Shown: positions 470 through 20,755 of the stretch, in pieces
Layout of the letters: each line of letters begins with the position of its first letter
How positions within the stretch are numbered: the stretch's first letter is position 1
Source of the DNA: Halichondria panicea
Lineage: Eukaryota > Porifera > Demospongiae > Suberitida > Halichondriidae
Direction of reading: 5' to 3'
Length of the DNA stretch: 64,000 nt
NCBI RefSeq assembly: GCF_963675165.1
Contig: NC_087380.1
Coordinates: forward strand, 5,898,071 to 5,962,070
Notes under the pieces: generated by a model
What the model saw: only the letters and a program-made list of their open reading frames with translations
Database searches by the model: none
What the model was told of the DNA's origin: nothing
Position numbers and translations under genes: made by a program

Positions 470-3400
470 ATGGCCACTTGGAGTGTCCTCTTGTTAGCGC
501 TTGTCTTGAGCACTGCTCTAAGGCTGGGTCAAAGTGAGTTCACAGATCCTGAGCAAATAGCCATTGCTGCAACTGGTAAGTGTCTTTTTAGCTAGATCTC
601 TATAGTCGCTGTTTATATATAGGGCTAGGGATAATGCAATGATGGTGTCATGAGAATGTAAGCAAGGCTTATAGGTAATTCTGTCCAGCTAGCATCTGTG
701 CATCTGTATGAGGTAGACTACGATGTATACCTCCATCGCTATAGAATGTAAATATGGAAATTGTACAGACTCCTACTCGGGAATCGTGGTTACATGGGTG
801 ACCTTTAACCGGACAGAGACCTCAGAAGTGCAGTATGGTATCCATAGCGACAAGACGGACCTGTCCAAGACTGCAAAGGGAGATACCACAAAGTTTGTAG
901 TGGGAGACGTGAATCGCTTCATTCACAGGACCACTCTCAGAAATCTGGTTCCACTAGCGAAGTACGGTGAGTGTTGCACTATTAATTGTTCATTTTGGTC
1001 CCCCCAAAGACACCACCTCTAGTGATGTACTATCATTATCGTGGTGTGTGTTCTATTATGACAGAGACCACTCAACAACGTTCCTACAGGAAATATTCCT
1101 TACACTCTGGTCATATGTAAAGTTATACCTTCCTCACAAGCCAACATTTACAATAGGGTTTCTTGCATGCAGGATTTTTAGCTGGGAGGGGGAAATGTTT
1201 AATTGAGGATTCGGAGGACCCCAGAATTTTTGTTGAGGAACGGTTATCTTTGGTGCAACTTGGGTTTTGTATAAACCATTACATTTATATAGTTCGAAAA
1301 AAAAATCATACATTTTGTCATGACATAATTTAATTTCTAGGGGAATCGAATCCCAGGGCACCCCCCCTCCTCCTGATAACTAAATTTGTAACTGTACATC
1401 CTACAATGCTCAGTAGATATGGACACATTCAATGACATTGTATACTACAGACTACAGATGTGGCTCCCCTGCCAACTGGAGTCAGGTGCTCACTCTGAGA
1501 ACCCTGGGAGACCATACCTCGTCCCCTACGCTGGCATTCTATGGTGACTTTGGACTGGAGAATGCTCGCTCCCTCCCCTGGCTCATTGACGATGTTAATA
1601 GAGAACGGTTTGATGCTGTACTGCATGCAGGGGACATGGCATACAACTTATTCAATGTGAGGATTGTTGAGTAACAAAAATTGATGGTTGAATGTTTGAT
1701 AGAACGACTGCCTACCTTGAAGTTACATACACTGTTGACTTACAGCAGACGTTCAGTTTCATGTACCTTGCAACACATACACGAACGTGAAACATGAAAC
1801 CACAATGTATAAGCTGTGGTTACTGAAATGTGGACCCTTGTATACTTTGCACTGTACACTGCAGTACCTTTATCAGTGGTATCCTAGCTGCATGTCCAGT
1901 GGTGTATATAGGAACCAGGGGCTGCAGCCCCCCTTCAGTTTTGGTGCATGCACTGCAACGCTACATGCCTGCTATTTTTAGTCAAGCTCAATGGAATCAA
2001 AGAATCAAGCTTTAGTTGTCCAGGAAACACGCAAATAACAATACCTGCCTAAGAATCAATCCCAGAGCATGCAAAATAGAACTTGTCTTGGGTCAGGGTA
2101 CTTCCATATGTGCCCACAGGCGTATCAGATCTCCCTCTAACCTCTTTCTATGCCACCATGCTGTCGACTTGTTCACATTCAAATTGCTAGCTATTAGCCT
2201 GTATTATAGACCAAGTGCACACCTCTGGTACACCATTCTCCATCGCATGTCTGTGGAGTAGGCCTTTCTGCAACCTTATAGCTGCTAGAGATCTATAGTA
2301 CACAACAACACTGGCCAATTTGATTTGCAAATTTGCCGATTCCAAGAAACTGTTTGAGTAGTCCTGCATGTTTACATTGTGGTTTACCTATGTGGTGCAA
2401 TATGCAATCTTCTGGGTAAATTGGCTGTAACCACAGTTGTAACGATTATGAATATCATTAATCAGTAGTCACATGCAGTAATGTTGCTTCTCTTCCCCTG
2501 GGATACCACACTGACACTGTTACTAAGCAATAGAGCATCTAATTATAATAATTTATATAGCGAAACTCATAAAATTATGTACATAAACTGGGTCAAAGTC
2601 AACGAATAATACACACCATTCTCCATTGAATATATGGAGCTGTAGTTTGAGGGCTGTGCTAAAGTCATTACAGTGGTGTACAGTGTAACTTTCAAAACTG
2701 TAGTGAGCATGCTTAATGATATTTATAATCATATCGTTACCGTGGTTACAGCCAATTCAGAATATTGCAAGTTTTAAAGTTAAAATGTCTTGTAAAGCTG
2801 TAGCATGTACAACTGCCTCTCTTCTTGATTGACATAGTCTTAGCTATAAGTACTGGCGGATTACGTCAACCAATAATTATATTCTTCAATTGAGCAATTG
2901 TAAAAGAATTCACTTCATACATCTAGTATTTCTCTGGTATTTGTGCAGGATGAAGGTAGAGTGGGGGATGATTTCATGAACCAGATACAAGATGTGGCTT
3001 CACGGGTACCGTACATGGTTGCCCCTGGCAACCACGAGTGGCTCGAGTAAGTCGTTCCCTTGAGTGTGATAACTCGTTAACCCTGCCCCCTCACCTTGCA
3101 GTAACTTCACTCACTACATTCATCGGTTCAGTATGCCCGGGAACAAGGAGGGACTCATGTACAGGTGGGTGTGGCTATAATTGACATAATTATTGACGGC
3201 ATTCTTTTGTTAGTAAACTACAAACAGTATACGTTTTCTCCAGAATTAATGATTTGCAATGCTGTGTAGTGTACTCATAATTTATATAGAACTAAAGTGA
3301 TGCACGATCTACACTCTATGTAAAGTAGTCTCTCACAACCACACCCCTTGCCCCCCCCCTCTACTCAGTTGGACGGTAGGTCCAGTACGAGTTATCAGCT

Positions 3401-5843
3401 TCAACACGGAGTTTTACTTTTTCCTGTGGTATGGCGTAGACCTTATAAAGTGGCAGTACCAGTGGCTAGAGGAGCAGCTGGCAATGGCCAACACACCCGA
3501 GGAGAGGAACAAACATCCCTGGATAATTACTATCGCTCATCATCCCATGTACTGCACCACTATTGACGAAGATGATTGTGACCATTACAACAGTGTGGTA
3601 TGTGTGTGGTGTATCTATGGACAGTGGGAGTGTGATAATTAATTGTTATGATATGAAAGCGTACTTTCACATAACGCTGTGATAGTGCATGATTAAAGCG
3701 GTCACTCGATAAAGTATTAGGAATGTGCAACAGTTTGCAATAATTGGTGCTTATTTTATGCACGTTCTTTTATCACTCTGGAAATAAATAATTACGGCAG
3801 TCCAGAGAGTTCACAGGGTTTACATTCACTAAAGGACAGTACAAATGACCTTCGCTAATAGAGGGTTGACCTTCGCTAGTGGAGAGTTCTCCTTCGCTAG
3901 TGGGCGATTGAGCTTCGCTAGTAGAGAGTTCATGTACGCTAGATCTATTATATACTTTTAATACAATAATTCGTGCATGTTCTACTCTAGGGATGTTGGG
4001 TAGAATTCAATCAAACTGTACCCAGAATAAAAGTCCACCAACTGAACAGCCCTAGAGTTGGAACATGTGCAGTATCAACCTATAACTAGATCAACGTACA
4101 TACTTGTAGCTAGACACAATGAATATTGACAATGGAATTTTTGAAGCTCTTTTATCACTCTGGCCACAAAAAATAGCTGCATGCGCGTAATAAGTAGAAA
4201 CTTCCAAGTAAGCAAAACTAGAGAACAAGATTTAGTTTGCAAATCCACGAGTCAATATCCAAGAAAAAGTGGCTAGAAGCCGCTATATGACTTGCATTTG
4301 CATTGCAACGGTATATATAGAACAGTTACATCAGTATAACAAACACACACACACACACACACACACTACCGTATACCTCGCTGTGCAGATGCCCTCTGAG
4401 GCATAATGATACATGCAGTGTTCACATTCAGTGCCCATATTGATCAATAGTTGTATGCTTCCTTATTGTATTTGACTGCCTACATGCAGGTGAGAGTTGG
4501 CGAGCCAACAGTGCACAAGTTTGGACTGGAAAATCTATTCTACAAATATGGTGTGTTCCGAGCGTGTGTTTGTGCATATGCTGATCTACTTGTGAATCAT
4601 GATTCGGGAATGACTGTATTTATTCTTCCCTTTCTGCAGGAGTGGACATTGAGTTGTGGGGTCATGAGCACATCTACGAACGATTTTGGCCTCTCTACGA
4701 CTTCACAGTGAGCTCCCTCTTAACCTTAACCTGCCAGCTTCATTCATAATAATTATGTGCACAATTGAGACCAAAATATTTATCGCCCATTCACATACAC
4801 AATTAATTGTTGCGGAAGTCTCTGAACCCACTGTACCCACTGCGCTCTTTACCACAGGTGTACAATGGCTCCCTGGACGCTCCCTACACTGACCCAAAGG
4901 CACCCATTCACATTGTGTCAGGATCAGCCGTGAGTTGACCGTAGAGTCCAGCTCCTATGTAGTTGTCCAGCAAATAGTGGCGTATTTTATAGGCATTCAA
5001 TTACAAATCCATGTTTAAGTAAATAATCTCGACTGTTGTGACTAACTCAAGTTAATGTTTCACCACAAATAACTGTGTGCTAACTTTTCCCCCCGAATGT
5101 TATTCATCCACTCAGGGTTGCCGTGAAAAACACGCTGGGTTCCAAAAGGAGCAACCTGATTGGATGGCATTCAGAAGCGAAGACTATGGCTATAGTAGGA
5201 TTAAAGTATATAACCACACTCATGTCACAGTGGAACAGATCAGTGCCGATCAGGTAGGTGGGTGGGTGGAGCTAACATGTACTGAGGGCACTGGGTGGAA
5301 AGTTCGATCCACCTAAGTATTAACTTTCAGCCAGAAACTGAGTTAGTTGAGTTATACATGTAGTACCGTGTGGCGTTGTAGAATCTATCAATGTCCTTCT
5401 CCACATGCATGCGCTCTATCTATAAAAAATCAGCAATGTGCTGTAGTCCAGTGTTTCCCATAAAGCAGGAAAGCAGGGCAATGCGCCCCCCCTTTACCAC
5501 AAAATAGGTGTGTATGTGGCTTTTAGAACTGATGCCGTACCAACCCCTGAGCCGCTCTATACCGCTTAGGCCCTCATCTTTTTCCCAGTCCCTCTACTTA
5601 TATACTTTTCTTTGGGGGAACACTGGCAGCATGTTTACTTCTAATAATTTTTATGTGTATCATAAATTCATAATTATGTTACTAAACACACGTTATAATT
5701 ATATTAATTAAGCTAAGCAATGTAAACCAATTAATAGTAGTACGACTATTTTTACCTACACACTAACTTTCTCGTTTCTACAGGATGGCACTGTTATTGA
5801 CAAGTTCACCATCATCAAACACTACCATGGACCCTACAATTGA
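470..5843 (+). CDS. ACP7: purple acid phosphatase, ACP7 (iron/zinc) type
   Basis: Secreted metallophosphoesterase that hydrolyses phosphate monoesters with a dinuclear metal centre. Eleven exons: 470-575, 745-966, 1451-1656, 2949-3046, 3102-3164, 3369-3597, 4490-4550, 4640-4707, 4858-4929, 5116-5253, 5784-5843. They total 1323 nt (440 aa) and keep frame throughout. The start gives a hydrophobic signal peptide (MATWSVLLLALVLSTALRLG). The five metal-ligand blocks are visible in order: GDFG, GDMAY, GNHEW, AHHPMYC and GHEHIYER. The FYKYGVDIELWGHEHIYER and SAGCREKH segments follow vertebrate ACP7 closely. An AATAAA lies at 5871. The start of exon 2 is the least certain junction: a nearby block reading ASVHLYE (about 690-713) resembles the usual PEQVHL strand but could not be joined in frame. 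Family assignment is firm. Confidence 0.93.
3840..3950. repeat. minisatellite, about 26 bp unit
   Basis: Four to five imperfect copies of a unit built around CCTTCGCTAGTGGAGAGTT, inside the intron between phosphatase exons 6 and 7. Confidence 0.75.
4285..4411. repeat. dispersed repeat carrying a CA microsatellite, copy 1
   Basis: A segment with TTGCATTGCAACGG, a (CA)n run and then ACCGTATACCTCGC...GAGGCATAATGA. The same order recurs at 8190-8403 and 13655-13783. It appears to be a mobile element whose internal CA tract varies in length. Confidence 0.55.
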
Positions 5844-6530: not shown

Positions 6531-8275
6531 TCAAGCTAAAAATTCTTTCTCGATATCGTCAGCTAGGTCCCCCCTCTCCACCCCGGGACCTCTCAAAGCC
6601 TCCACCATGTCCAACCAGCTCGGAGATCCCTTCCTGAACCAGGCATTCAGCATTGCAACAAAGCACTCATCCACACGACCATTGTGGGACCTTTGTACAC
6701 TCTGCACATAAAAAAAAACTATAATAATAGACAGAAAAAGAATGCATATTATTATAGAATTGTGTAGTGGAGACTGACACTTTACAAAGCTAGTTAAGCT
6801 TGCACCAATGCAGGCTAATGCAGGCTATAACCTATTGATTTACAAATACCAAGAGTTCATTAGGAAGAGTACGCAACTCCAATTAAAACCGTAGTAGGCA
6901 TCCAACCTACGTCATAACCACATGCTGTTGTATAACCGGCTGTGAAATCAAATTTGCAATGATTAGTTATTCATTTAGGCAATGAACCGATTAAACGCCC
7001 TCCTTTATTAAACACCCATCTCGTTTAAACGCCCATGGTAAAAGCTGTCTTTGTCAATAAATTCCCATCTTAAATAATCGCCCATGTATGGGGCGTGGCA
7101 CTGTGGGTGGAGCTGAAGTAGTACGTGGAACCAGTTGCAAGCGTGGCAACATAGAATAATAGGTTATGATGGCCAATTAAAAAGAGAGATTTAAAAAGAG
7201 AGATGACACAGAGGGAGAATTAAACACCACTCCTACGACTTAAGATATAAGCTGAGAGCTGTGGCAGCAGCCAAGAATAGTATAATAACTGCTGCTGTGC
7301 AAGAGTTTGAAGTAGACATAACAATAAACATCCGTTTCGAATAAGCGCCCATCTCGTTTAAACAGGAGATAAATGCCGGGCGTTTATACGGTAGTTACTA
7401 ATTTTATTCATTACCTTTCCTACTAGTTGCAGTTACAATAGTGAGTATCAGTGACATAGGTCAGACAGAATGTCGTTTATGTACAGTCTAATGGAGTTGG
7501 GTACTCTTCCTCTTGCATATACAGTGGCGGATCCAGGGGGAGATCCCAGGGTGCCACAGATCCCCCCTTTCAGTCTAGCTATTATGGCTTTACTACAGCT
7601 ACCAGCTATAGCTATTTATCAGTTTTTGTAGCTATTGTACTTTGATTCAATGATTGTACCTGTTGTTTTGATGTATCACAACTGCCAAAGAAGTGTTCAA
7701 AATCAATGGTTAGCCTATATATAGGCTAGCTAGTTGACTGTTCGTGGCAGCTAGCTAGCTCTACGCAAGCCTATCATAGGACTTCCCCTGGCTGAGAATG
7801 GGACTTTCCCTAGTCTTACTGCACAATGTGTGACCGAAAGTGGGCGTAATCCCCCCAAAAATAGGTGCTGCGCGCTCGTTAGTTTGAATCTCCCTTTCAT
7901 TTTTCCTGGATCCACCACTGATATACGTATATGTAACACAGTTAGTTCAATACTCACTTCAATAGTTCCGTCGTCCACATCCAAGTTAATGGCCAGGTGG
8001 TCCCACTTTGCACGAACAGTCCAAGTAGCATCTTTGACAGTCTTGAGAGTTATTTCACCACCTGTAGCTGTGGCCTTACCTGAATTAAAATGCATGGTTT
8101 GCTTTAAATCAAGGATACAAACCAATTGCAAATAGTTATTGTAAAAAAACATGTCGAGAACAAAATAAGAGGTACACTGATGCATAATAATTATACAATT
8201 AACTGTTGATTTTCGTCGCATTGCAACCGTTGAGCAGTTACAGCTGGAACAGACACGCATGCACGCAAGCACACA

Positions 8276-8308
<33 letters not shown>

Positions 8309-11300
8309 CACACACACGCACGCACGCACGCGTGCACACACACACACACACACACACAGTCAGCTTTACCGTATCCCTCGTGCGGCTATGCCTCGATGCA
8401 TATAATTAAGCAATGGACATTAAAAAACATGCATGCTTCACACAGAATTGTCAATACTTACTGATACTTCTCAAGCAGTGGTGTACTTTGAAGCAGAGCT
8501 GCTTGTTCTTGGATACTTCACATGTGTAGAACCCATCGCAATGATCCCTCGTCACTTTGTCCATAGTGAGTTCGCTATCCAATGATCCACACGCCACTTT
8601 TTTACCTTTCCAGGTCCACCTAAAGGAGAGGTTTGAATCAGGGTCAGCAAATGGCAGGGCATAAAGAACAGCTTCCTCATCCAGCTCAACTTCCTAGAAA
8701 AAGAACACACATATTTTAATAACATGTACATACATGTACACATGTAAAACACAGTACATGCATGCATGGGGCATGACAAACAATTAAATGCTCCTAACAC
8801 ATGCCTTTGCTGGACTATAGCGTTAAATTAGCATACAGTATAATATGCACATGTACATACACTGATCAGAAGCTATAATTATTCATACCATTGCAAACCA
8901 GCACTCCTGATGGGGTGGTAGACTGTCAACACGGCCGTGCTCACATCGAAACAAGGGGTTGCGTCCTTCCAGCTTGCACAGACACACGTCCTCAGCTTTT
9001 TGATGCTTTGGGCACTGACAATCGAATGCAGTAATCGGCTCGATCTTCTTGCTAATTCCGCTCATCACATACAGAACAGTAGTCAGCACATAGGAGCAGA
9101 GATCATGCATGTCACAATCTTCATGTCTTTTGATTCGAATCTCGTAACAGTTGGCGTGAGCTACCAGCGTGATGTGGTGTTTGGCACTATCGACTTCAAA
9201 AGAGACCAGATTTCTCATCACTCGAGATTCTCGCAGATCCCATTTCAGCCCCAAAATTCCTTTTTGTCCTTCGGAAACCAACTTGCTGATCATGGCACAG
9301 AAGACACCAATGGGCACATAGCCAGACTTGAAGGTGATCTTGATTGGAGAAGGTGTGTTGGAGTCGATGGTTGGACTATTTGAGAGCTCTTCCTTTGAGG
9401 CACACTCGAGGATAGCTGGCATGAAGTAGAGTGGCCGGGGACCTTTACCAAATATAGGTGCAAGGAGACTGACATGCTCAAGCAACTTCACAAGCTTGTC
9501 GACCGGGATCAAATCACCTTCCTTCACTTTTGCCTTGTTTGACTTGGAACAGCAGCGTTTAATCGTAGCACTAGAAAATTGCCCAAATTCTTGCCATTTC
9601 TTGATCTCGGCGGTGGTGAAGCGAGACTTCCTATCGGATGAGTGTAGAGATAGAAGAGATTCGACAATCAAGAGACTGATGCTGTTGAAGACAACGTTGG
9701 GGCAGCAGATGACACAGTTTTTGAAGTAAGCGTCGATGTCAGGGTAGTAGAGAAGAGCCCCCACACAATGGTGCAAATACCAAATGGTGAATTTCACTTC
9801 AGCTTCATCCATATTCAATGCTTTGCCAATCTGAATACACTCTTCCATCGTCGCAATTTCAAACTCTTTTCTCAGAATTACCCCAAAAAGGAGCTGTACA
9901 GGGCGAATCGGGAGTTCGGCATCTTCGAAAAATGAGTCAAACACTGTTTGAAGGTGCTCACGAATTGGACCAATGTCAGCATCTGTGCCATTGAAGTTGT
10001 CCACAGAGAAAAAGTGCTTGTTATCTGGGTGGTTGATGACGTCACCAAAATTTGAGGTGATGATGGACAAGGCTTCGTGCTTATCTTGGAGTTTTTCCTG
10101 CAAACGCTTCTCAGTATCGGCTTGAATGGTAGAATCTGTGCTCAATTGATGAACAACTGCACTTGCTAGCTTGGAGAGGGTTTCGTTACATTGCTTCATC
10201 TGAAGGGAAAGTTGAATAGCTTTGGGTGTGCTCTGTTTCAATCTGTTTTCAATTTCAGGGGGTAGAGTTTTTTCGAGAAATTCAACTATGTTTTGCTCTT
10301 TGGTATTGTCTTGTGTTTTCTGCTGTGGTTTAGTAGCAGCCTTCACTTTTGCTTTTTGCTCCATATGCTTCTCCATGTCTTTTAAAAAGGAATCCAATTC
10401 AAGCTGCTTGCCAATCTCTGCCTCTAATACAGAAAATACATCCTCCACCTTCTTCTGCTCAGATTCAACTTCTTGTTGCACCTTCAGAATCAGCTGTATC
10501 GCAGCTCCCAAGGTGATTGCGTCAAGACCGGGGTAATCCCCCTTGAGCTTTGCCTGAACGACTTCTGCATTGGCTTGAACTTCCAACTTGTCTTGGTAAG
10601 TGCCCACTAGACTCACGACAGCCTGAAGATCTCGGAATTGTTTAACTTTATCGGTAACCACGGAATCAAGATCCGAATCAACTGTGACGTGATGGCTGAT
10701 GGCTGAAAGAATTTGGGAGAGCGTCTCTCGAATTGTGTACTTTGCTTCGTAGGGAGTGATTTTGTCTTGGTCACGTTCGTAGGAAACTTCATAGAGTTCG
10801 TCAAGGTCTTTATCGAGCGGAAAAAAGGCGAGAAACATCCCTGGGCCTTTGCTCAAAAATGGAAGCATCTCCATGAAGCCGGGCTGTCCACCTATGTCAA
10901 TGATGTTGAGCAAAACGTTGCCTACCAACTGTTCAATGTAATTGCCTCGCTTGACAATATCTCGAAGGTTTTCAACGATCTTGTCGACCTTGGTTTCTGG
11001 AGCCTTTGGTTTGGCTGGCTTGCTTGTTCCTTCCTGGGAAACTTGTTTTGTTTCAGAATCTTCTTTTGGCTTTGAATCATCAATGGGATCATTCGTTGGA
11101 TCAGCAGATTCAACTACAGTTTTGGAAACAGCAGTATTTAGAACTTGCTGAAAGCCAATCAAGTAAGCAAAAATCAGTTGTGCTTCCTTGTCAATATCTG
11201 TGGAGGCTTTGAGAATCAATTTGGAGTCACTTGACACAGCCAGGACTTGATTACACTCGGCAAGAAGAGTGCTGCAGCGTTTTCTGTCTTGTGGTGGGAT

Positions 11301-14300
11301 TGATGCCAGGTTGGGTAGGAGACCCAGCAGACGTTTTCGGAAGGTGGTTTTACCGAGTCCTGAAAGGCCGATTAGGTACAGTTTGAGGTAGCGAAGGTTG
11401 ATGGTGTTCTTTTTATCTCTCAGCAACTCGTTCAGCTTGTGTAGGTATTTCAACTGCTCCTGAACAGAGGCTGAAAGTAAAAAGAGTTGAACAACTTTTT
11501 TTGACAACAATATACGTACATACATTTAAAAAACTGCAGAGATAATTATAGCTATATATGAGGTATAATTAAACTTCTGAATGAACTTCGTTGATGACAT
11601 ATGTAAAGTGCATACAACATTTAAAGTTATATGCCATCATAAATTATTTACATCTTAAAGACAGCCAAACTCAATACTGTAGAAACTGGATTATTAGCGC
11701 ATGCGCTTTTAGGGTCAATAGCAGAGCTCTATACGCTTATATTCGAGAATGCGCCTATAATGCAGTCATTTTGAGCCCCACCCAGCAACCGGATGTCTTT
11801 GCGATGAGAGCTGACTCGCAAGCTGGCTAGAAAGCGAGCAAGCAAGGCAAGCAGGCAACCCTAACTGGATCTATAATGTTACAATTCATTTTACAGTTCA
11901 TTTACATCATTTAATTCATATTGACCAGGAACTTGGAATAAAAGGACCTCATCCATGTCTCACATTCTCTCAGCATGATCAGACAAGGTAACAGTCCTTA
12001 CAGATGGATATCACCAGCTATATAGCTATTATGCACTGTACAAGCTAACTATATAGCTCATAGATAAACAAAATTAGCTGAATCAATTCACTAATAACCT
12101 TCGCATAATTGGAAAGCGCTTCAATTCGAGTATAAAAAGCTTGCAGTTGAGCATGCGCTTAAAATAAAGATAAGCTTATAATCGAATAAGCGCTAATAAT
12201 CCGGTAAGTCATGAATGTAACAGTTGTTTTATTGCCGTATTAAACATTGTGTGCAATACTATAGCTTCTCACCTGCTGTGTCCTTGCTTTCATGCACTGA
12301 GGAGTCTTCACTCTTGATGTACTTGTCCTTAATCTCAGCAGCAATGTCATGGCGCTCAATGCCGGGTGACTCCAGGGCTTCAACCAGATCAGACCAGGTG
12401 GGATTGGGTGAGGACGTGCGCCATTTTCCAAGCATTGCAGTGAAGCGATCTGCTACGGTACGATGGTCCTTCTTAATAGCCTGCATGTTTATATAGAGTG
12501 AAAAATAGATGTGCAACTATTATAATATCACTGATGCAGATGATGAAATGTCTGGTAATACAAAAACAACTTGACAATAATCATTCACAATTTGTAGGAT
12601 CTTTGTGCTATATACATCACATAACACAATTTATTACACAACCAATAGGATTGACAAGAGCGTTTGTAACTTTAGCTTTTACACAACTAGTACAGTACCC
12701 TCGCGAAAATACGCCCACCCTTTTCTGCAAGAAATCTAGACTTATTAGGGGACTGGGCGTTTAATCGCGAACGGCGAGTTTTCATTCGAACATATGCCCA
12801 CCTGCGGCCTCAAATCGAGGTTTACACTTTGCTCTATGACAATTCTTTATTAGTATTTTCATTTTAATACATAGTATGAATATTTTATTGACAACAACAA
12901 TGTTATAAACTAATGCATGAGTATGCATGATTAAAGCATGACAAGAGAATAAACATGAAGAAGTGGACTCTGACTCTATTTGTTGATGTTAGATGTATAT
13001 GTAGCAGAAACTTCTCAAAGGATGGTAGGTCATACTCTTACAGAGCAGAGCTATCAGGTACTTTGTTTCAGAAAACCAAGGCAAGGTAACCTGCAAAATT
13101 AGCCTGTGTGATAACTTTCTTGGACTTGTGTTTTCCTTTCTCAGCATATAGGACTACTTGTTCCCTGCATATACATCTTCAGGGGGCAAACAGATCCATA
13201 CAGGAAAAGTTATAATGTCTGATCTTGGTCCAGCAAGAAGTATAGTCTTACTAGCTACTACCTAAAACTTCCTTTCTTCACTAAACCCTTGTGCAAGAAC
13301 TTCGAAGCAAAAGAGGGGATGGGCGTTTATTCAAGATGGGCTTATTTTCGCGAGGGTGGGTATATTGGTTTTGTAATTAGGATTGTTTGTAGCTTTTTTT
13401 AGCAATGTTTCACCATAGATAAAAGAGGAAGAGGGATTGGAAATGGAAGTGATTCACGTGATGTTTTACATTGAAGTCTATACGTATCCGACTAGAAAAA
13501 CATTTGCAATGTGAAAAATTGCTATAGGATTGGCCAGGGAAACCTCCAAAAAGCGTGGAAACAAGAAATGAGACGAGAGCATAACTCCAATCCGTTACAA
13601 CGTCAATCAACTCGAGAACAAAGCATTATTTTGAATTAAAATCCAAGTAAACATGACTAGAAGCCTATAGAAACTCTTACTTGCATTTTATTGATCCTTG
13701 AGCAGCTGTAGCAGTCTACACAGATACAGACACACACACACTACCGTATACCTCGCTTGCGCATGCGCACCGAGGCATAATGACCCTCTTTTTTGTTTAC
13801 ACATTTTTTGGCCCAGCCATTTCTAAAAATTGTTTACATTGCATATTGTGGTAGGAAAATAAATATAATTATACATTGCGCATAATTATAACTAGAACAC
13901 TAAAGTGCTAACCCTCAATGCAGTTAAAAGCATGGAAGCTGTACGTAGCAAGTAACATGAGCAGTGAAATTCTACAAACCCTTTTCCATTGTTCCTGGTA
14001 CAGGATCACTTCAGGTGTAAAATACGTGCCCCGAATAAAGGACGCCTTTAGCTAGAGGCCATGTAGCCAGCGTGGAATTTCAAGCTTCTTAGCTTTTATT
14101 CGACAACGCGTTAACGAAGCTGCAACTTTTAAAACTAATAACTTGTTGTGTGAAGGCTATCCATGTTGTAAACGCAGCGCCATGGCACCCAGGTGAGTAG
14201 ATTCACATGTCACAAACAAACAAACCAACGGACTACTATACCTGCTGGCCGCAGCACGGCCTCGGGTAATTACACATGCAAGTATATAGTACGTATCCAT

Positions 14301-17300
14301 ATAGATAGTGCTGGGAAACTGTATGCCCTTCAATCACCTGTAGTGTTCTGTATGGTAAGTCCAACTCAAGCCCTACGTCAAACCATTTAGAACGAGAATC
14401 CCACAAGGCAGTTCTCATCATTACTAGCGTGAGGGACCCTGGAAACACACGCAAATAAAGGATAAAGTAGAAGGAGAGATACTCGATTACAATTGTCAGA
14501 TTGCTATCACTCACTTATTGGATCCTTGTTTTCTTGCAATGACGAATCATAACTTTTGATGTATTTGTCTTCAATTTCATAAGCAATGCCAGAACAGCCA
14601 ACAAGCGATGACCTCAGGGCGTCAACTAGAACAGACCAGGTAGGGTTGGGTGATGACTTGAACCATTCTTCAAGCATTGCAGTAAAGTAATCTGCCAGGA
14701 CAGTGTGGTTCTTACGAATAGCCTGCAAGGTAAACACATTATTAATAACTGAATGTATAGGTTTGTGGTCTGGTTCTGATGGTAATAGAGCATAATTATT
14801 ACTATACATATAGGTAACTGTACGTAGCTCTATGCAAGCATGCATTGATCAATCACCTCTAGTGTTTTCTCAGATAGATTCAAAGCAAGCCCCAGCTCAA
14901 ACCACTTAGCACGAGCATCCCACAAGGCAGCTTCCATGCGTGCCCCTTGAAGTGTAGAAAACCCTGGAGGTGCAGTAAAGTCGTGATATTGCAGTGCATC
15001 GACAGTATTAATAAGGCAGGTTTCAGGACTTTCAGAATATTCATGCATGCATGTGTTATCATACTCACTAGAGCTTTCTGTGTCCTTGCTTTCTTGCACT
15101 GAGGAGTCATCACTCTTGATGTAGTTGTCCTCGATCTCAGCAGCAATATCAGAATGGTTTAGGGACGGTAACCTCAGGGCTTGAACCAGCTGAGACCAGG
15201 TGGGGTTGGATGAACTCATCAGCCATTCTCTAAGCATTGCAGTGAAGCGGTCTGCTACAGTGCGGTGGTCCTTCTTAATAACCTGCATATAGAAGGAAAT
15301 ACGTTAAAATAATACTATTATGTGTATATGTGGTTGGCGTTTTATTAGTGGCCAAGTATATACTATAGACATGCACAGAGAATTGTAAGTCTTGCAACAT
15401 TCATTAGCTGGCATAATTATAAGCAACTGCATGCATGGTATATTCAGTGAATTGAGCACGTACATATACATAATTATAGTGAAAAAACAGGCAGCTTTAC
15501 AAGATACAAGTAAAATAAAACTGCGCAGTTATATTCACAGCGTATACGGATTAAACCGAAAGAGCATGGGAGAGAAAAGAATACTGCATGAGAGAAGGCA
15601 AAAAAAACTTAAAGAAGCTCAGAGGGTACCAATAGAATATAAATGGCAGTGTATAATAAATGATAATGGAAAGACCTGCATGAGAAAATGTGTGCTTTAG
15701 AAAGTCTTCCCTTTTTCAGCATAATTATACTCATACTAAAGGTTACAATGGTGAAATTAAGTCATACAGTCCCTTCCGTGTTACACACGGTCGCGTAGCT
15801 TCGAGGCATGATTATGGTAAAGGACCGTCGTGATATAAAACACATATAGCATTTTTTTGATTGTGTTTTATGCTATACTGTATTTACTTGATTAAACGCC
15901 CGGGCGTGTATCTCCTAGCAAGATCTGTAGAGGGGGCGTTTAAACGAGATGGGTGCTTATTCGAAACAGGCGTTTATTGTTATGTCTACTTCAAACTCTT
16001 GCACAGCAGCAGTTATTATGCTATTCTTGGCTGCTGCCACAGCTCTTAGCTTAAATCTTAAGTAGTGTTTCTCCCTCTGTGCTCTTGGCCATCATAAATA
16101 GTATCTATATTCTATGTTGCCATGCATGCTTGCAACTGCATGGTTCCACGTGCTACTTCAACTCTAACCACCCACATAGGTGCCAACCTCCATGCAAAGA
16201 AAAATTTCCGGGACAAAAAAATGGAGGGGGTTTAGCCCCATTTTGTAAAAACACTTGTGGAGATTTATTATTTCTGCCATGCATGCTCAGTTAATCATGC
16301 TGGAGAGCCCCACCCACAAAACTGCAAAACATTGTTTGATCGTAGTGGTAGACAGACAGCCATAGTGCAGAAACTGAATTCTGTTCATGATTTAAGCTTT
16401 CAAGCCATAGCTTCAGTGTTTTTGAGCTTCTTTGGACTGTATTATCCCAGCTCAGGAGCAGCAATCTTGAAAATCCGGGACATTTCAGGTAAATATATAG
16501 CAATTTCCGGACGGAACACAGGACAGACCCTCTAAATCTGGGACTGTCTCAGGAGTTCCGGGACAGTTTTTTTTTTCTTTTTTTTTTTAACAATTCGGCA
16601 AAGCCAGGATACAATAAAATAGCAGAAGCTAATAAGTTAGTACCCTAAAAAGTTAGCAGTTGGCATCTATGCACCCCATATTTATTATTTAAGATGGGCA
16701 TTTATTGACAAAGACATGCAGCTTTTACCATGGGCGTTTAATCCAAGGAGAGCGTTTAATCAAGTAAATACGGTATAATACAGGTAACTTGCCCTCGGAG
16801 CTTTGCCCGTATGCTTGTGCCTGTATATTTTCGGTATCATGCTAACTCGATCTTTATCACTATCAAGAGTGCATAAAGTGGAATAAGCAGCAGCCCATTT
16901 AAACCCATTGATTGCCGTCCATATAATTACACTATAATTTTATGTGTAAAACTCCCACATCTCAAGTGGCTCAAAACAGTGCGGTTCATTACATATAGAT
17001 TGCGCAAGCACATGAGGTCTCATTGTAGCCTGCCTGTCTAGCCATACATATTATGGTCATGTCAACCCACACAGTTAATTACATTACTACACAAATGTTG
17101 TGATTGCATGATCAGACAACAATGTATAATGGTGTATATAGTATTGAAGTTGTTACTCCCCTTCATGCATGCACTCCTGCTTATTATGTAGCGGGTAATT
17201 TTCGTGGAGTAAATTCGTTATTTTCGTTGGCAAGCTAACCTCCACGAAATTTTCCCCTACGAAAATGTAGGCGTGGCTTACCGGAAAGCATGTAATGCAA

Positions 17301-20300
17301 TGCAGCAGGCAATGAATTTTACTCATAAAAATCACTGTTTTTGAGTTGAACGAATTTTTTACCCCACGAAAATTACCCGCTCTACGGTATATATACTTAC
17401 AGAGTACATGTATGCAGCCATAATTATAGAGAGTGCTGATGGGAGTCTGCATGCATGCCCTTCAATCACCTGTAGTGTTTCGATTGGTAAACTCAACACA
17501 TTCCCCAGACTCATCCATTTAGCACGAGCATCCCACAAGGCAGTTTTCATCTCTCTTAGTGTGAGGGACCCTATAAATGCATGGCGGACAATGCAAAGTG
17601 TTATAAAAAGTAAATTTATGTACCCTATAGCAGGTAATTTTGTGGGGAAAAATATTGTTCTCCCCACAAAAATGTAGGCGTGGCTTACCGGAACACATGC
17701 AATGCAGTGCAAGCAGTGAAATCAAACACAATTCTTACTCATGAAAATCACCGGTTTCGAGTTGAACGAAATTTTTACCCCACGAAAATTACCCGCTTAT
17801 AAGTACGGTATATGTGCACATGCACATACCGTATAGTGTGACATTTTTGAGGGGCTTAATTTTCGCTAATTTCGTGAGTTAGCAATCCTATACACGAAAA
17901 TAAAGTCCACGAAAAATAAATTAGCTATAACGTGCAAAGATTAAAGGCGTGGCTTCCGGTAAGCAGTCATTCCGCGAACATTGTGCAACAAAATGTTTTT
18001 AGAGGCCATGCATTCCACGAAATATAAGTGCCTCGAAAATTTTGCGCTATACGGTAGTGCATGTATCTACAAATTGTATACAACCTTGTTATACTCCAGG
18101 GTAAAGTTCAAAGTAAATAATAATTATTGCAGGACTCTTTGTGTAAATGCATAATTATACTGTATACCATCATATATCTCCTTGGCAACACTGGGAGGGG
18201 GATCGTACTCTACTGTTACGCTGGCTGAAGACTGCATGGGGTAGGAGGGGGTATGAAATGCATGAGTGAGTGTTGAGAACATGTGACTAAAATACAGATT
18301 GTCCGAAGTAAATTATTATTTTTATCAGCAAATTTTTTTAATGTGTTATAATTATGATGATCAGCTAGGGAACACTTTATACTCACTTAGCTGCATGAGC
18401 ATTAGCTCCAATAATTATAGTACCAACACCCTATATAAGCATGCACTGTGAGACAATTGTATACCTTCAGTGACCTTCCCTTCTTGTTCTTTAAGCGCAT
18501 ATATGGTGGGGATCGGTACCTGCCATTTCTGAGACGACCAAGAGATACATCCAATGTGCCTAAAAACCTGTAGAAATTGTAGTCAAAAATAATACTTACA
18601 AATTAATCTCATTAATTGGTGTCAAGAGCTGTAGAATATACATGCATAGAGCATTAAGATACAGGTTTCAAGGTGTTTTTCATTTGTCCAAGAAAGTCAG
18701 CAAACAGAAAGAAGCCATAAGACCCCAAAGCGATGGCCAAATCACAGAAGCTGCTCTGCTCTCCAACAAAATGGCTAAGCCTCAATAGGTCAATGGCATA
18801 GTCTCGCTTTTTTTTGCAGTATATGCATCTTCTTGCATTATGGGGGAGGTCCTCTAGTGCTGCTGTCACATGATATATACACTGTAAAAAATAAAGTGTA
18901 CTCAGCCAGCACACTTCATTTTTACAGTGTATCCGGATATACTACACTCCGTATATCCTCCTCGAAAGTGTGGTATGTCCTATACGTGGATACCCATTAC
19001 ACATAAATTGTATACTATATACATGCACGTATATACACAATGTACTGAGCAATACCAAACATTCTTAATCACAACACTCACGGACTCTTCTTTGCTCCCA
19101 CACTAAATTGACGATACAAGTCAAGCTTGAGTGATTGGGCACCGCTGGTCTGCAAGGGTTCCTTCAGTGGAAATACTAATTCCTGCATTACAAAAGGAAG
19201 TCAAACTGTATTGTAGCAAAAAATGGACACTCCCTCATAGTCTCATGAAAAAATAAATGTGTATAATTATTGCAGGTATATATAATGCATATACATTGCA
19301 TTTGTTAAACGTTCTATTAGTTTATGTTATAGATAGTACATGGGCATGAGGTATCTATGTGTTATATGTGCTTATAATTCCCTGGGAAACTATGAGATTA
19401 TGGCTCATAAATTCCCTGCTAAACACACACAAGTGGGATCTAAGCAATCTTATAGAAACAGTTTCAGTTTCGAGGTTATCAAATCTATCTTATCTAGTTA
19501 AAGTTCGAATTCCTAAGATTATACTGATAATTCATACATAACCGCTCACCTCATTCCACTTACATGTAGGTAGGGTAGACGATATTACGGCCGTCTGTCT
19601 CTCTTCCCCTGTGTATAATTATGCGGTTTACACTACTACAACTGGTACATTTGGATACTCCTCTTAATGTATACTCCAGGTATAGCTAATACAAAAATTT
19701 AACCCACATAATATTATATAGGAAACGGGTTATTCTCGTACAGTGAAAATTTTCGTATTTTTCGTATTGTAGAGCATCATGAAAATTAAAACTGCTATTC
19801 TACCGCAATAGATTGATGAGTTGTACGAATATGAATACGAAATATTTAATTGGCAGTTTGTACAAAAATTACCCGCTATATTATGCGGTATAAGTAAACA
19901 AATTTTCTACACGGCCAAAGAGAAGCTAGACACTTGTTGGCAACGGCAGGACAGATGGGTGGGGCTCGCTAACCTCGTTAATAGTGAGTTGTATGTCTTC
20001 TTCTCTTTTATACGCCATTGCATGGTGCCACTTGAACATTTAAATGATTTTGTTGATTAAATAGACTACCGTAATTAATGTAATTACAGCGCCACTATGA
20101 TTTAAGTGCCACGTCAGCATCAGTATAATTTTTGAGGCCCTAAAAGAAGTGCCTATGCTGTTGCTGTAATTATTTTTTCTGGCACTTCTGTTTGAGTCAT
20201 CAAGACAATCATCCTGCATCTCTACCACACTTCTGTATACATGCGATATGCATGCATGCAGTTAATGAATGTTGTTCACAAGTCAGCTAGCTAGCAAGTG

Positions 20301-20755
20301 AAACGAAGCTAGACCGCGCCCATTTTCTCTAAGATGTCCATACTGTATTAGCTGCAAAACATAAGCGCCACCATAATTTAGACGCCAGCTGGACTGAACG
20401 CAAATTTTTAATGTTCTAAAAGATGCGCTACTCAAAAGTAGAATAAATTTTTCTGGCCCTGTAAATTACGGCATTTCTTCATAGTCTCGCAACATTACTG
20501 CAATAAACAATAAGCAAGCTTTACCTGATTGATTCCATCATTAGCGCAGCAAACAATTTATACATAGTACATACATACACATACATGCACATGCAAATAC
20601 GTAGATTATAATTATATTTAGCTAGGCCTACCTTCAAAGGAAACTTTCACAAAGAAACAATTCTCAGAGAGGGCCTCTCGATCTCCTTGGTCGTAGACAT
20701 CGCGAATATTTGCACTAATTTCCTTCACTCTCAACGCCATCTCCAACGCATACAT
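6531..20755 (-). CDS. C2 / triple death domain / Roc-COR GTPase / Ig / death domain protein
   Basis: Fifteen exons, 5' to 3': 20755-20632, 19608-19550, 19182-19082, 18567-18465, 18231-18168, 17570-17470, 15282-15069, 14945-14857, 14722-14515, 14438-14338, 12480-12273, 11470-8889, 8693-8462, 8079-7958, 6701-6531. They total 4479 nt (1492 aa), all phases agreeing. Residues 6-145 form a C2 domain (LRVKEISANI, FFVKVSFEG, TCKWNE, FLGTLDV). Death domains follow at about 151-235, 256-340 and 355-440. Roc starts near 458 with P-loop GLSGLGKT (492-499), an acidic insert at about 578-620, switch II DIGGQ (649-653) and a GTYQDK block. COR-like winged-helix and LYFMPAIL segments run to 1318. An Ig-like domain (1319-1395; W...C...DGFYTC) precedes death domain four (1396-1492). 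ROCO plus death domain is known from DAPK1, but this one has no kinase or ankyrin repeats. A role in death or immune signalling is inferred. An upstream ATG at 20755 was preferred; ATG at 20740 is possible. Confidence 0.85.
6980..7395. mobile_element. relic of a TTTAAACG-type inverted-repeat element
   Basis: Contains GATTAAACGCCC, CATCTCGTTTAAACGCCC and CTTTGTCAATAAATTCCCAT, and ends GGGCGTTTATACGGTA. The same pieces occur in opposite order in the fuller copy at 15876-16775. It lies in the last intron of the ROCO gene. Confidence 0.6.
7522..7920. mobile_element. hAT-like non-autonomous element (MITE)
   Basis: Begins CAGTGGCGGATCCAGG and ends CCTGGATCCACCACTG, imperfect inverted ends about 399 bp apart. 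The CAGTGGCGGATC end is typical of hAT-type MITEs. There is no transposase ORF inside, and I did not find a clear 8-bp target duplication. Confidence 0.7.
8190..8403. repeat. dispersed repeat carrying ACGC/CA microsatellite, copy 2
   Basis: ATTGCAACCGTTGAGCAGTTACAGC, then long (ACGC)n and (CA)n tracts, then TACCGTATCCCTCG...GCCTCGATGCATA. Same order as 4285-4411 and 13655-13783. It lies in the intron between the Ig exon and the first exon of death domain four. Confidence 0.55.
11675..12205. mobile_element. TIR element, GTAGAAACTGGATTATTAGC family, short copy
   Basis: Starts CTGTAGAAACTGGATTATTAGCGC and ends GCGCTAATAATCCGG, about 530 bp. It shares internal segments with the larger copy at 52629-53957 (CTCTATACGCTTATATTCGA, AACCGGATGTC, GGAAAGCGCTTCAATT). 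No coding capacity. It lies just upstream of the Roc exon. Confidence 0.75.
12696..13362. mobile_element. TIR element, TACCCTCGCGAAAATA family
   Basis: Starts TACCCTCGCGAAAATACGCCCACCC and ends TTATTTTCGCGAGGGTGGGTA, about 667 bp. Subterminal blocks GGGCGTTTAATCGCGA and GGGCGTTTATTCAAG are also related in inverse. There is no transposase ORF. It sits in the intron that splits death domain three. Confidence 0.7.
13655..13783. repeat. dispersed repeat carrying a CA microsatellite, copy 3
   Basis: TTGATCCTTGAGCAGCTGTAGC, a short (CA)n run, then ACCGTATACCTCGCTTGCGC and GAGGCATAATGA. Same layout as copies at 4285 and 8190. Confidence 0.5.
14132..14246 (+). repeat. 115-bp dispersed repeat, inverted partner of 22935-23057
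   Basis: Its reverse complement matches 22935-23057 nearly base for base, including GTTTGTTTGTTTGTGACA, CTACTCACCTGGGTGCCA, GCGCTGCGTTTA and AACAAGTTA.TAGTTTTAA. It may be the end of an uncharacterised mobile element. Confidence 0.7.
15876..16775. mobile_element. TIR element, TACTGTATTTACTTGATTAA family
   Basis: Left end TACTGTATTTACTTGATTAAACGCC and right end GCGTTTAATCAAGTAAATACGGTA form imperfect inverted repeats of about 24 bp, 900 bp apart. A segment around 16180-16640 (TCCGGGACA...TTCCGGGACAG) looks like a second element nested inside. It lies in the intron inside death domain one. Confidence 0.75.
17188..17389. mobile_element. TIR MITE, GCGGGTAATTTTCGTGG family
   Basis: Left end GCGGGTAATTTTCGTGGAG and right end CCCCACGAAAATTACCCGC, with the shared core AGGCGTGGCTTACCGGAA. 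Close relative of the full copies at 38315-38523 and 59184-59393. Confidence 0.75.
17621..17810. mobile_element. TIR MITE, GCGGGTAATTTTCGTGG family, degraded
   Basis: Left end TACCCTATAGCAGGTAATTTT and right end CCCCACGAAAATTACCCGC, with the same AGGCGTGGCTTACCGGAA core. It immediately follows the first-half exon of death domain one on the upstream side. Confidence 0.7.
17827..18056. mobile_element. TIR MITE, TACCGTATAG...CTATACGGTA variant
   Basis: Left end TACCGTATAGTG and right end TTTTGCGCTATACGGTA. The interior (GGGGCTTAATTTTCGCTAA, AAAGGCGTGGCTTCCGG) is related to, but distinct from, its neighbours at 17188 and 17621. Confidence 0.65.
19722..19890. mobile_element. relic of GCGGGTAATTTTCGTGG-type MITE
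   Basis: Degenerate left end AAACGGGTTATTCTCG and right end AAAAATTACCCGCTATA, followed by TGCGGTA, in the first intron of the ROCO gene. Confidence 0.4.
20067..20473. mobile_element. possible TIR element with TACCGTAATT ends
   Basis: Starts TACCGTAATTAATGTAATTACAGCGCCA and ends GGCCCTGTAAATTACGGCA. Internal blocks TAATTTTTGAGGCCCTAAAAGA and AATTTTTAATGTTCTAAAAGA are related. The inverted ends are imperfect, so the element call is moderate. Confidence 0.45.

Follow-up and report, generated by a model that had tools for sequence, protein, structure and literature searches.

The 64,000-nucleotide stretch of the Halichondria panicea genome analysed here (NCBI RefSeq assembly GCF_963675165.1, contig NC_087380.1, positions 5,898,071 to 5,962,070), hereafter called the window, carries a predicted gene on its minus strand, from 20755 to 6531. 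Its fifteen exons, separated by introns that are all GT-AG, keep one reading frame to the stop codon and specify a product of 1498 amino acids, or 1493 amino acids if counted from the second methionine. An original prediction, made from the letters of the window alone, had also joined fifteen exons in frame, arrived at 1492 amino acids and viewed the product as a possible single adaptor. As judged from a search of the genome, the gene is instead a member of a family with at least 51 loci. The exons are as follows.

Exon 1, 20632..20755, minus strand: C2 domain part 1, with the start methionine; identity of 57% to the exon of paralog B and 43% to that of paralog A
Exon 2, 19550..19608, minus strand: C2 part 2, GEERQTAVISSTLPTCKWNE, phase 1 to 0; missed by the exon-by-exon search and placed by means of paralogs A and B
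Exon 3, 19082..19182, minus strand: C2 part 3, from the gene model and paralog comparison
Exon 4, 18465..18567, minus strand: C2 part 4, from the gene model and paralog comparison
Exon 5, 18168..18231, minus strand: end of C2, exits in phase 1; C2 scores 31.2 bits (Pfam) across exons 1-5
Exon 6, 17470..17570, minus strand: death domain 1 (DD1), first half, phase 1 to 0
Exon 7, 15069..15282, minus strand: DD1, second half, phase 0 to 1; 35.0 bits for DD1
Exon 8, 14857..14963, minus strand: death domain 2 (DD2), first half
Exon 9, 14515..14722, minus strand: DD2, second half; 26.4 bits for DD2
Exon 10, 14338..14438, minus strand: death domain 3 (DD3), first half
Exon 11, 12273..12480, minus strand: DD3, second half, exits in phase 1; 34.4 bits for DD3
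Exon 12, 8889..11470, minus strand: putative divergent Roc-COR GTPase, a single exon of 2582 bases
Exon 13, 8462..8693, minus strand: Ig-like module; Ig_3 at 18.4 bits, under the cut-off
Exon 14, 7958..8079, minus strand: death domain 4 (DD4), first half
Exon 15, 6531..6701, minus strand: DD4, second half, and stop codon; 22.2 bits for DD4 against a cut-off of 22.6

Exons 1 to 14 exit in phases 1, 0, 2, 0, 1, 0, 1, 0, 1, 0, 1, 0, 1 and 0, and exon 15 ends with the stop codon. The 59-base exon 2 was located through paralogs A and B, which have a similar small exon with equal phases and the same neighbours (compared by eye). Exon models of three paralogs, A, B and C, repeat the boundaries of the window gene, with three, two and no front death domains, respectively. 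An in-phase AG or GT lies no more than six bases from the aligned place at all 61 internal boundaries of these models and at exactly that place in 49 of the 61; the exon-by-exon search missed exon 1 in paralog C and exon 2 in each of the three paralogs. Because these exons and phases recur in the paralogs, and because the Roc-COR exon has a ratio of non-synonymous to synonymous substitution rates (dN/dS) of 0.31-0.37, it is very unlikely that the gene model arose by chance. The model thus confirms, at the level of predicted exons, that C2, three death domains, Roc-COR, Ig and a fourth death domain form one gene in that order. The same order had been claimed in the original prediction, and it is borne out by the gene model, Pfam, sequence motifs, profile comparisons and the Ig pairing described below; the single-gene reading is likewise supported by the model, by Pfam and by splice sites and phases that recur in paralogs A, B and C.

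Within the whole protein the C2 domain (residues 32-111) scores 27.5 bits, compared with the 31.2 bits of exons 1-5 alone and a Pfam cut-off of 22, and Pfam recognizes four death-domain stretches. Among the domain types named in the original prediction, C2 and DD1 to DD3 pass their Pfam cut-offs, whereas DD4, Ig, Roc and COR do not. The three front death domains are 56-66% identical to each other and 32-35% identical to DD4, and therefore DD1 to DD3 look like tandem duplicates of one kind, with DD4 of another kind. No kinase domain, ankyrin repeat or leucine-rich repeat (LRR) was found in the product with Pfam. Hydropathy analysis gave no clear membrane span (the best 19-residue mean, 1.8, falls within COR) and no signal peptide is evident by eye, so the protein, its Ig module included, is probably cytosolic. 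Asp residues are the usual calcium ligands of C2 domains. When inspected by eye, the C2 loops QGDREALSENCFF and LYRQFSVGAKKSPFLG appear to lack this pattern, and for this reason the C2 domain probably works without calcium.

A search of the genome with exon 12 gave 96 matches that reduce to at least 51 loci on contigs C1, C2, C3, C4, C6, C8, C14 and C15, the 45 dropped matches being further pieces of the same loci. This count is a lower bound, as 52 of 372 Roc-COR candidates were scored, and loci with equal scores may in part be recent duplicates or uncollapsed haplotypes. The Ig exon gave 63 matches in the same genome. When each Roc-COR locus was paired with the nearest Ig match downstream on the same strand within 3 kb, a partner was found at all 51 loci, at distances of 49-1362 bp, and 12 of the 63 Ig matches had no listed Roc-COR partner. 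The strongest argument for regarding the weakly matching Ig exon as a real module of the protein is this constant pairing. At the C15 locus the Ig exon, itself a weak match (Ig_5, 14.2 of 27.3 bits, below the cut-off), is followed by two death domains, and similar frames are present at C1. A run of N produced an artefactual open frame of 2394 amino acids at C1:205417. No relatives turned up when bacterial and viral contigs were scanned by pattern with the family alignment, a result that gives no support for transfer from those sources.

The modules in front of Roc-COR differ from locus to locus. Every death domain spans a pair of exons with phase 1 at both ends, apart from DD4, with which the protein terminates. 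C2 also exits in phase 1, and all 11 copies of the Roc exon looked at have a phase-1 entry; where several AG acceptors were available to the Roc exon, we chose the pyrimidine-rich one that aligns between copies. This entry phase allows modules of matching phase to be exchanged in front of the Roc exon. Contig C4 holds 15 of the 51 loci, and 14 of these belong to a close subfamily with 81-87% identity; the remaining one (C4:7753598, 55% identity) was left out of the mapping. C2 exons were detected upstream of Roc at 12 of these 14 loci, and between zero and six death-domain second halves precede Roc at each locus; these are counts of match positions rather than full gene models, and they include one C2 exon of paralog B from the exon-by-exon search. 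In the genome search, C2 exons were detected only on C4 (22 matches among 30 candidates), although these exons are short and the search missed those of paralog B. No C2 exon was detected at the C14 locus, which belongs to the close subfamily (82% identity).

Five loci outside the close subfamily, on C1, C2, C3, C6 and C8, were inspected upstream by domain search or by eye (for L031 the scan covered two reading frames). Ankyrin exons lie upstream of Roc-COR at the C3, C2 and C8 loci and are likely to belong to the same transcript as Roc-COR. The C1 locus has SH3 exons upstream and, further up, one weak ankyrin-like match (15.2 of 27.3 bits). The nearest upstream exon at C1 (SH3) and at C3 (death-like, 18.4 of 22.6 bits) exits in phase 1, as assessed by eye, and the cores of these two loci are 89% identical despite the different upstream modules found. 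Across the family, then, the predicted Roc-COR-Ig core is constant and the front is variable. The original prediction had C2, death domains and Ig take the place of kinase and ankyrin repeats; Ig proves to be a constant companion of Roc-COR, whereas C2 and the front death domains vary. Upstream of the C6 locus, kinase-like (by eye) and death-like frames (L015:5993-6913) were left unassigned; a reverse transcriptase of the long interspersed nuclear element type (by eye) lies between them and Roc-COR, and the death-like frame has no Pfam match at E 0.1. In paralog A the second half of the C-terminal death domain (C4:7023911-7024108) is 73% identical to the DD1 second half and 40% identical to exon 15, and this resemblance to the front type suggests exchange between death-domain exons.

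We lean towards the view that the family consists of cytosolic ROCO-type GTPases that would serve as GTP-controlled death-domain scaffolds, organised like NLR receptors but not themselves NLRs. Like NLRs, they combine death domains with family expansion, and some of the paralogs, though not all, have ankyrin exons upstream; unlike NLRs, the window protein has no LRR and no Pfam match to NACHT or NB-ARC, and its NTPase is Roc-like. A distinctly less probable account is that these genes are an expanded group of DAPK-like regulators of cell death or of the cytoskeleton, with no immune role and with front modules that set localisation only. DAPK1, a member of the metazoan ROCO group, combines kinase, Roc-COR and a death domain (PMC6337361; published proteins are compared here and below as described in the available parts of the cited papers). 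The window gene likewise joins Roc-COR to a C-terminal death domain, the below-threshold DD4. DAPK1 also has ankyrin repeats, which the ankyrin exons upstream of Roc-COR at the C3, C2 and C8 loci recall. The window product, however, carries neither kinase nor ankyrin repeats; it has C2 and three death domains in front and an Ig-like module between COR and the death domain, and its Roc is highly divergent with a long stretch between the G1 and G3 motifs. Moreover, at least 51 copies with differing fronts would be unusual for a housekeeping regulator.

The phase-1 junction also bears on whether the locus holds two neighbouring genes, one with C2 and death domains (exons 1-11) and the other with Roc-COR, Ig and a death domain (exons 12-15). 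The join of exon 11 to exon 12 is predicted from the genomic sequence, and other subfamilies have different exons upstream of Roc-COR-Ig, as two separate genes might. A division at this point is nevertheless very unlikely: the Roc exon has a phase-1 acceptor in all 11 copies looked at and so must follow another coding exon, and exon 11 exits in that phase. C2 exons were detected ahead of Roc at 12 of the 14 close C4 loci, and in paralog C the exons detected pass from C2 exon 5, which also exits in phase 1, to Roc-COR with no death-domain exon in between.

The single gene thus preferred has at its centre exon 12, in which four features could be placed from the exon translation or from the alignment.

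11346..11369, minus strand: P-loop (G1), GLSGLGKT; GxSGxGKTT is invariant in 11 of 11 aligned copies (coordinates from the exon translation)
10884..10898, minus strand: switch II (G3), DIGGQ; invariant in 11 of 11 aligned copies
10590..10604, minus strand: G4-like, GTYQD; G, T and D (GTxxD) are invariant in 11 of 11 aligned copies
8994..9986, minus strand: stretch used as the COR region in the profile test, COR-A followed by COR-B; weak Pfam COR-A, profile E 3.3e-6

Besides the window exon, the alignment contains 10 paralogs that are 47-87% identical to it and were chosen among the 51 loci; L007, the open frame of which starts late, was excluded. Pfam finds Roc at E 1 or better in nine of the 11 copies (best 0.0029) and COR-A in two (best 0.011). 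A protein encoded elsewhere in the same genome (C10:4289013) clears both Pfam cut-offs, with 39.2 bits for Roc and 61.5 bits for COR-A. The window exon matches this protein by BLASTP over the stretch from G3 to G4 (7e-6) and at the P-loop (6e-4), and the family profile matches it over the G3-G4 stretch at 4.7e-6. Compared as a profile with four COR regions of this genome taken as a set, the family COR region gives an E value of 3.3e-6 (probability 88%); for its COR-B part, the match to the C10:4289013 protein (L025) has an E value of 8e-5 (probability 61%). A reversed-profile control gave 0.18-0.67 against three targets, and, apart from that of the C10 protein, individual COR sequences gave no match to the family COR region (0.17-0.55). 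Because the GTPase motifs are invariant, and because the exon is homologous to the C10:4289013 protein, in which Roc and COR-A both clear Pfam, we read the central exon as a Roc-COR of divergent type, in which G1 and G3 lie far apart and a long spacer separates G4 from COR in the family alignment.

Another kind of P-loop GTPase is a poor alternative for this exon and would surprise us. The modest Pfam values for Roc and COR-A, the absence of any listed genome-wide Roc or COR-A match at the 51 loci and the failure of most single COR sequences to match are what such a GTPase might give. A PDB search with the exon 12 sequence found no match, and one with the family profile found a septin P-loop at E 0.8 and nothing useful beyond it. 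Set against these are the matches to the cut-off-passing Roc-COR protein (BLASTP and profile alike) and the COR comparison, the value of which lies far from those of its reversed control.

The spacer of the presumed Roc-COR exon is a Ser-Asp-Thr-Lys repeat of variable length, longest in the C3 copy (L019:6478-9762, L021:6622-9390). Matches to MSCRAMM adhesin NCBIfam models in three to four of the 11 copies derive from this Ser-Asp-Thr-rich spacer and were set aside. After COR, at the end of exon 12 (window 8901-9020), a conserved cluster of Cys and His residues (DCQCPKH...CLC...C) partly resembles, by eye, ACPCSK...CTEH of L025 and is possibly metal-binding. The C10:4289013 protein itself corresponds to a 1269-amino-acid open frame (L025:117-3200) that matches Roc and, in two places (C10:4289778 and C10:4291821), COR-A; three C10 loci score equally for Roc and make up a second unusual ROCO type in this genome. 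Of the 60 genome-wide COR-A matches, 25 are above the cut-off, and 141 Roc matches were obtained when 150 of 354 candidates were scored. Many short Roc-matching frames are probably Ras/Rab-type GTPases, and several long frames with Roc or COR-A matches have ankyrin, LRR or kinase parts, so ROCO-type genes are plentiful in the genome outside this family too.

Selection differs along the gene. Among all pairs of the window gene and paralogs A, B and C, dN/dS is 0.37-0.77 for C2 exons 3-5 and 0.21-0.68 for the Ig exon, alongside the 0.31-0.37 of Roc-COR. The second half of DD4 gives 0.40-0.56 (pairs without paralog A), and in the first half of DD4 non-synonymous change exceeds synonymous change over just 39-40 codons. 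The last front death domain gives 0.87-1.23 in pairs without paralog C, the pairing of front death domains across paralogs being uncertain. The core is held by purifying selection, and the front death domains change fast. That the loci form a decaying tandem array, the window copy included, is highly improbable: there are in-frame stops at C4:6982918 and C4:6968333, but the window gene is open through all of its exons and its Roc-COR dN/dS against paralogs A, B and C is 0.31-0.35.

If the proteins are death-domain scaffolds under GTP control, the front module would bind a membrane, a partner or a microbial cue, and so sense or anchor. This binding would shift the nucleotide and dimer state of Roc-COR, and the resulting dimerisation or higher assembly would bring the death domains together. 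The gathered death domains could then recruit death-domain partners and start cell-death or inflammatory-type signalling. Roc-COR proteins are known to undergo a nucleotide-linked cycle between monomer and dimer (PMC6337361). The gene structure, domain order, family, constant Roc-COR-Ig part, variable front, phase-1 junction and purifying selection on Roc-COR are read from the sequence. GTP binding and hydrolysis, dimerisation, membrane contact, death-domain assembly and an immune role we infer. The sponge-type adaptor of the original prediction, said to link membranes, GTP state and death-domain assembly, was thus right in outline but too narrow, and its three links belong with the inferred steps.

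Several points weigh against this scaffold reading. Exon 12 of the window gene stays under the Pfam cut-offs for both COR-A (16 of 35.3 bits) and Roc (11 of 27 bits), the Ig_3 match of exon 13 reaches 18.4 of 30 bits, and the 51 loci coincide with none of the 60 COR-A and 141 listed Roc matches of the genome-wide searches. A single-sequence AlphaFold model of the Roc-COR exon was uninformative (mean predicted local distance difference test score 36.5) and was discarded, so that the structure prediction proposed originally yielded no usable fold. The stretch from G1 to G3 spans about 157 residues in the window exon and about 69 in the C10:4289013 protein. With this long stretch, and with a G4 motif that is GTYQD rather than NKxD, GTPase activity could be lost or altered. 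Ankyrin and SH3 exons are tied to Roc-COR only by the phase of the nearest exon at two loci (C1 and C3), at least two C4 copies (the two named above) have in-frame stops inside Roc-COR, and the high dN/dS of the front death domains could reflect either relaxed constraint or diversification. Only expansion and modularity suggest an immune role.

ROCO proteins have been studied mostly through LRRK2 and DAPK1. With its at least 51 loci, variable front and tandem death domains, the present family would tie a GTPase to death-domain assembly within one polypeptide. It points to a past role for ROCO GTPases as modular receptors inside the cells of an animal, and it makes testable whether nucleotide state controls death-domain clustering.

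Several published systems share parts of this organisation. The original prediction relied on DAPK1 as the known ROCO protein with a death domain, but others exist. Placozoan ROCOs adjoin CARD or death domains, with at least 17 placozoan genes, and about forty domain combinations have been reported for animal ROCOs (PMC11378527). These placozoan proteins resemble the window gene in placing a ROCO module beside CARD or death domains in an early animal; they differ in that LRR, TPR, CARD and death domains, not C2 or Ig, are named for them in the available part of that paper. The order C2, death domains, Roc-COR, Ig and death domain could nevertheless be among the forty combinations. In three sea anemone species, the actiniarian NG3 protein has kinase, SH3, Roc-COR, death and TIR domains (PMC5094078). 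It is, like the window product, an animal protein joining Roc-COR and a death domain, but it includes kinase, SH3 and TIR, and the part of the source available names no C2, Ig or tandem death domains for it. An oyster protein from the same source couples TIR_2 and a GTPase domain with C2 (PMC5094078); the union of C2 with a Roc/Ras-type GTPase is shared, whereas TIR_2 is not, and neither a death domain nor Ig is named there for it.

The closest parallel in organisation, so far as the available part of its description goes, is provided by the brown algal LRR-ROCO candidate immune receptors, which number 9 to 47 genes per species in four species and in which COR is often missed by Pfam (it was detected in 18 of 111; PMC11378527). 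They share with the sponge genes an expanded family, front exons shuffled beside a constant Roc, and insertions inside Roc; they differ in having LRR in front of all members and no death domain, and here at least 51 loci belong to one family. In the sponge Amphimedon, a lineage-specific expansion of death-domain/TRADD-N proteins has one to three death-like domains in front and variable partners (PMC8195603). It too is a sponge expansion with front death-like domains and changing partners, but its core is TRADD-N rather than Roc-COR, and the C-terminus varies there whereas the front varies here. Among the papers listed in searches of an open-access library, none describes a C2-death-Roc-COR-Ig protein or this family in its title or opening lines; most subscription papers, and all preprints held at bioRxiv, fall outside that scope. 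Roc-COR with death domains was thus already known; what looks new is the domain order found here, together with the Ig-linked core and the expansion.

More tentatively, and with less confidence than the scaffold reading itself, we suggest that in early animals, alongside NLRs, a second class of intracellular receptors for immunity (or self/non-self recognition) may have arisen, one built on a GTPase. Its constant engine would be Roc-COR-Ig-death domain; ankyrin, SH3, C2 or death-domain arrays would be swapped at one phase-1 junction, and death-domain copy number (0-6) would tune assembly. Such a class would be a parallel invention to the brown algal LRR-ROCO receptors.

A purple acid phosphatase gene, recognized by matches to Pur_ac_phosph_N, Metallophos and Metallophos_C, neighbours the ROCO gene at its 3′ end; the phosphatase exons lie on the plus strand at window positions 776-5250. 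Short stretches similar to this phosphatase region recur beside paralogs near C4:6993.6 kb and C4:7005.6 kb, and the duplicated unit may therefore include the purple acid phosphatase gene.

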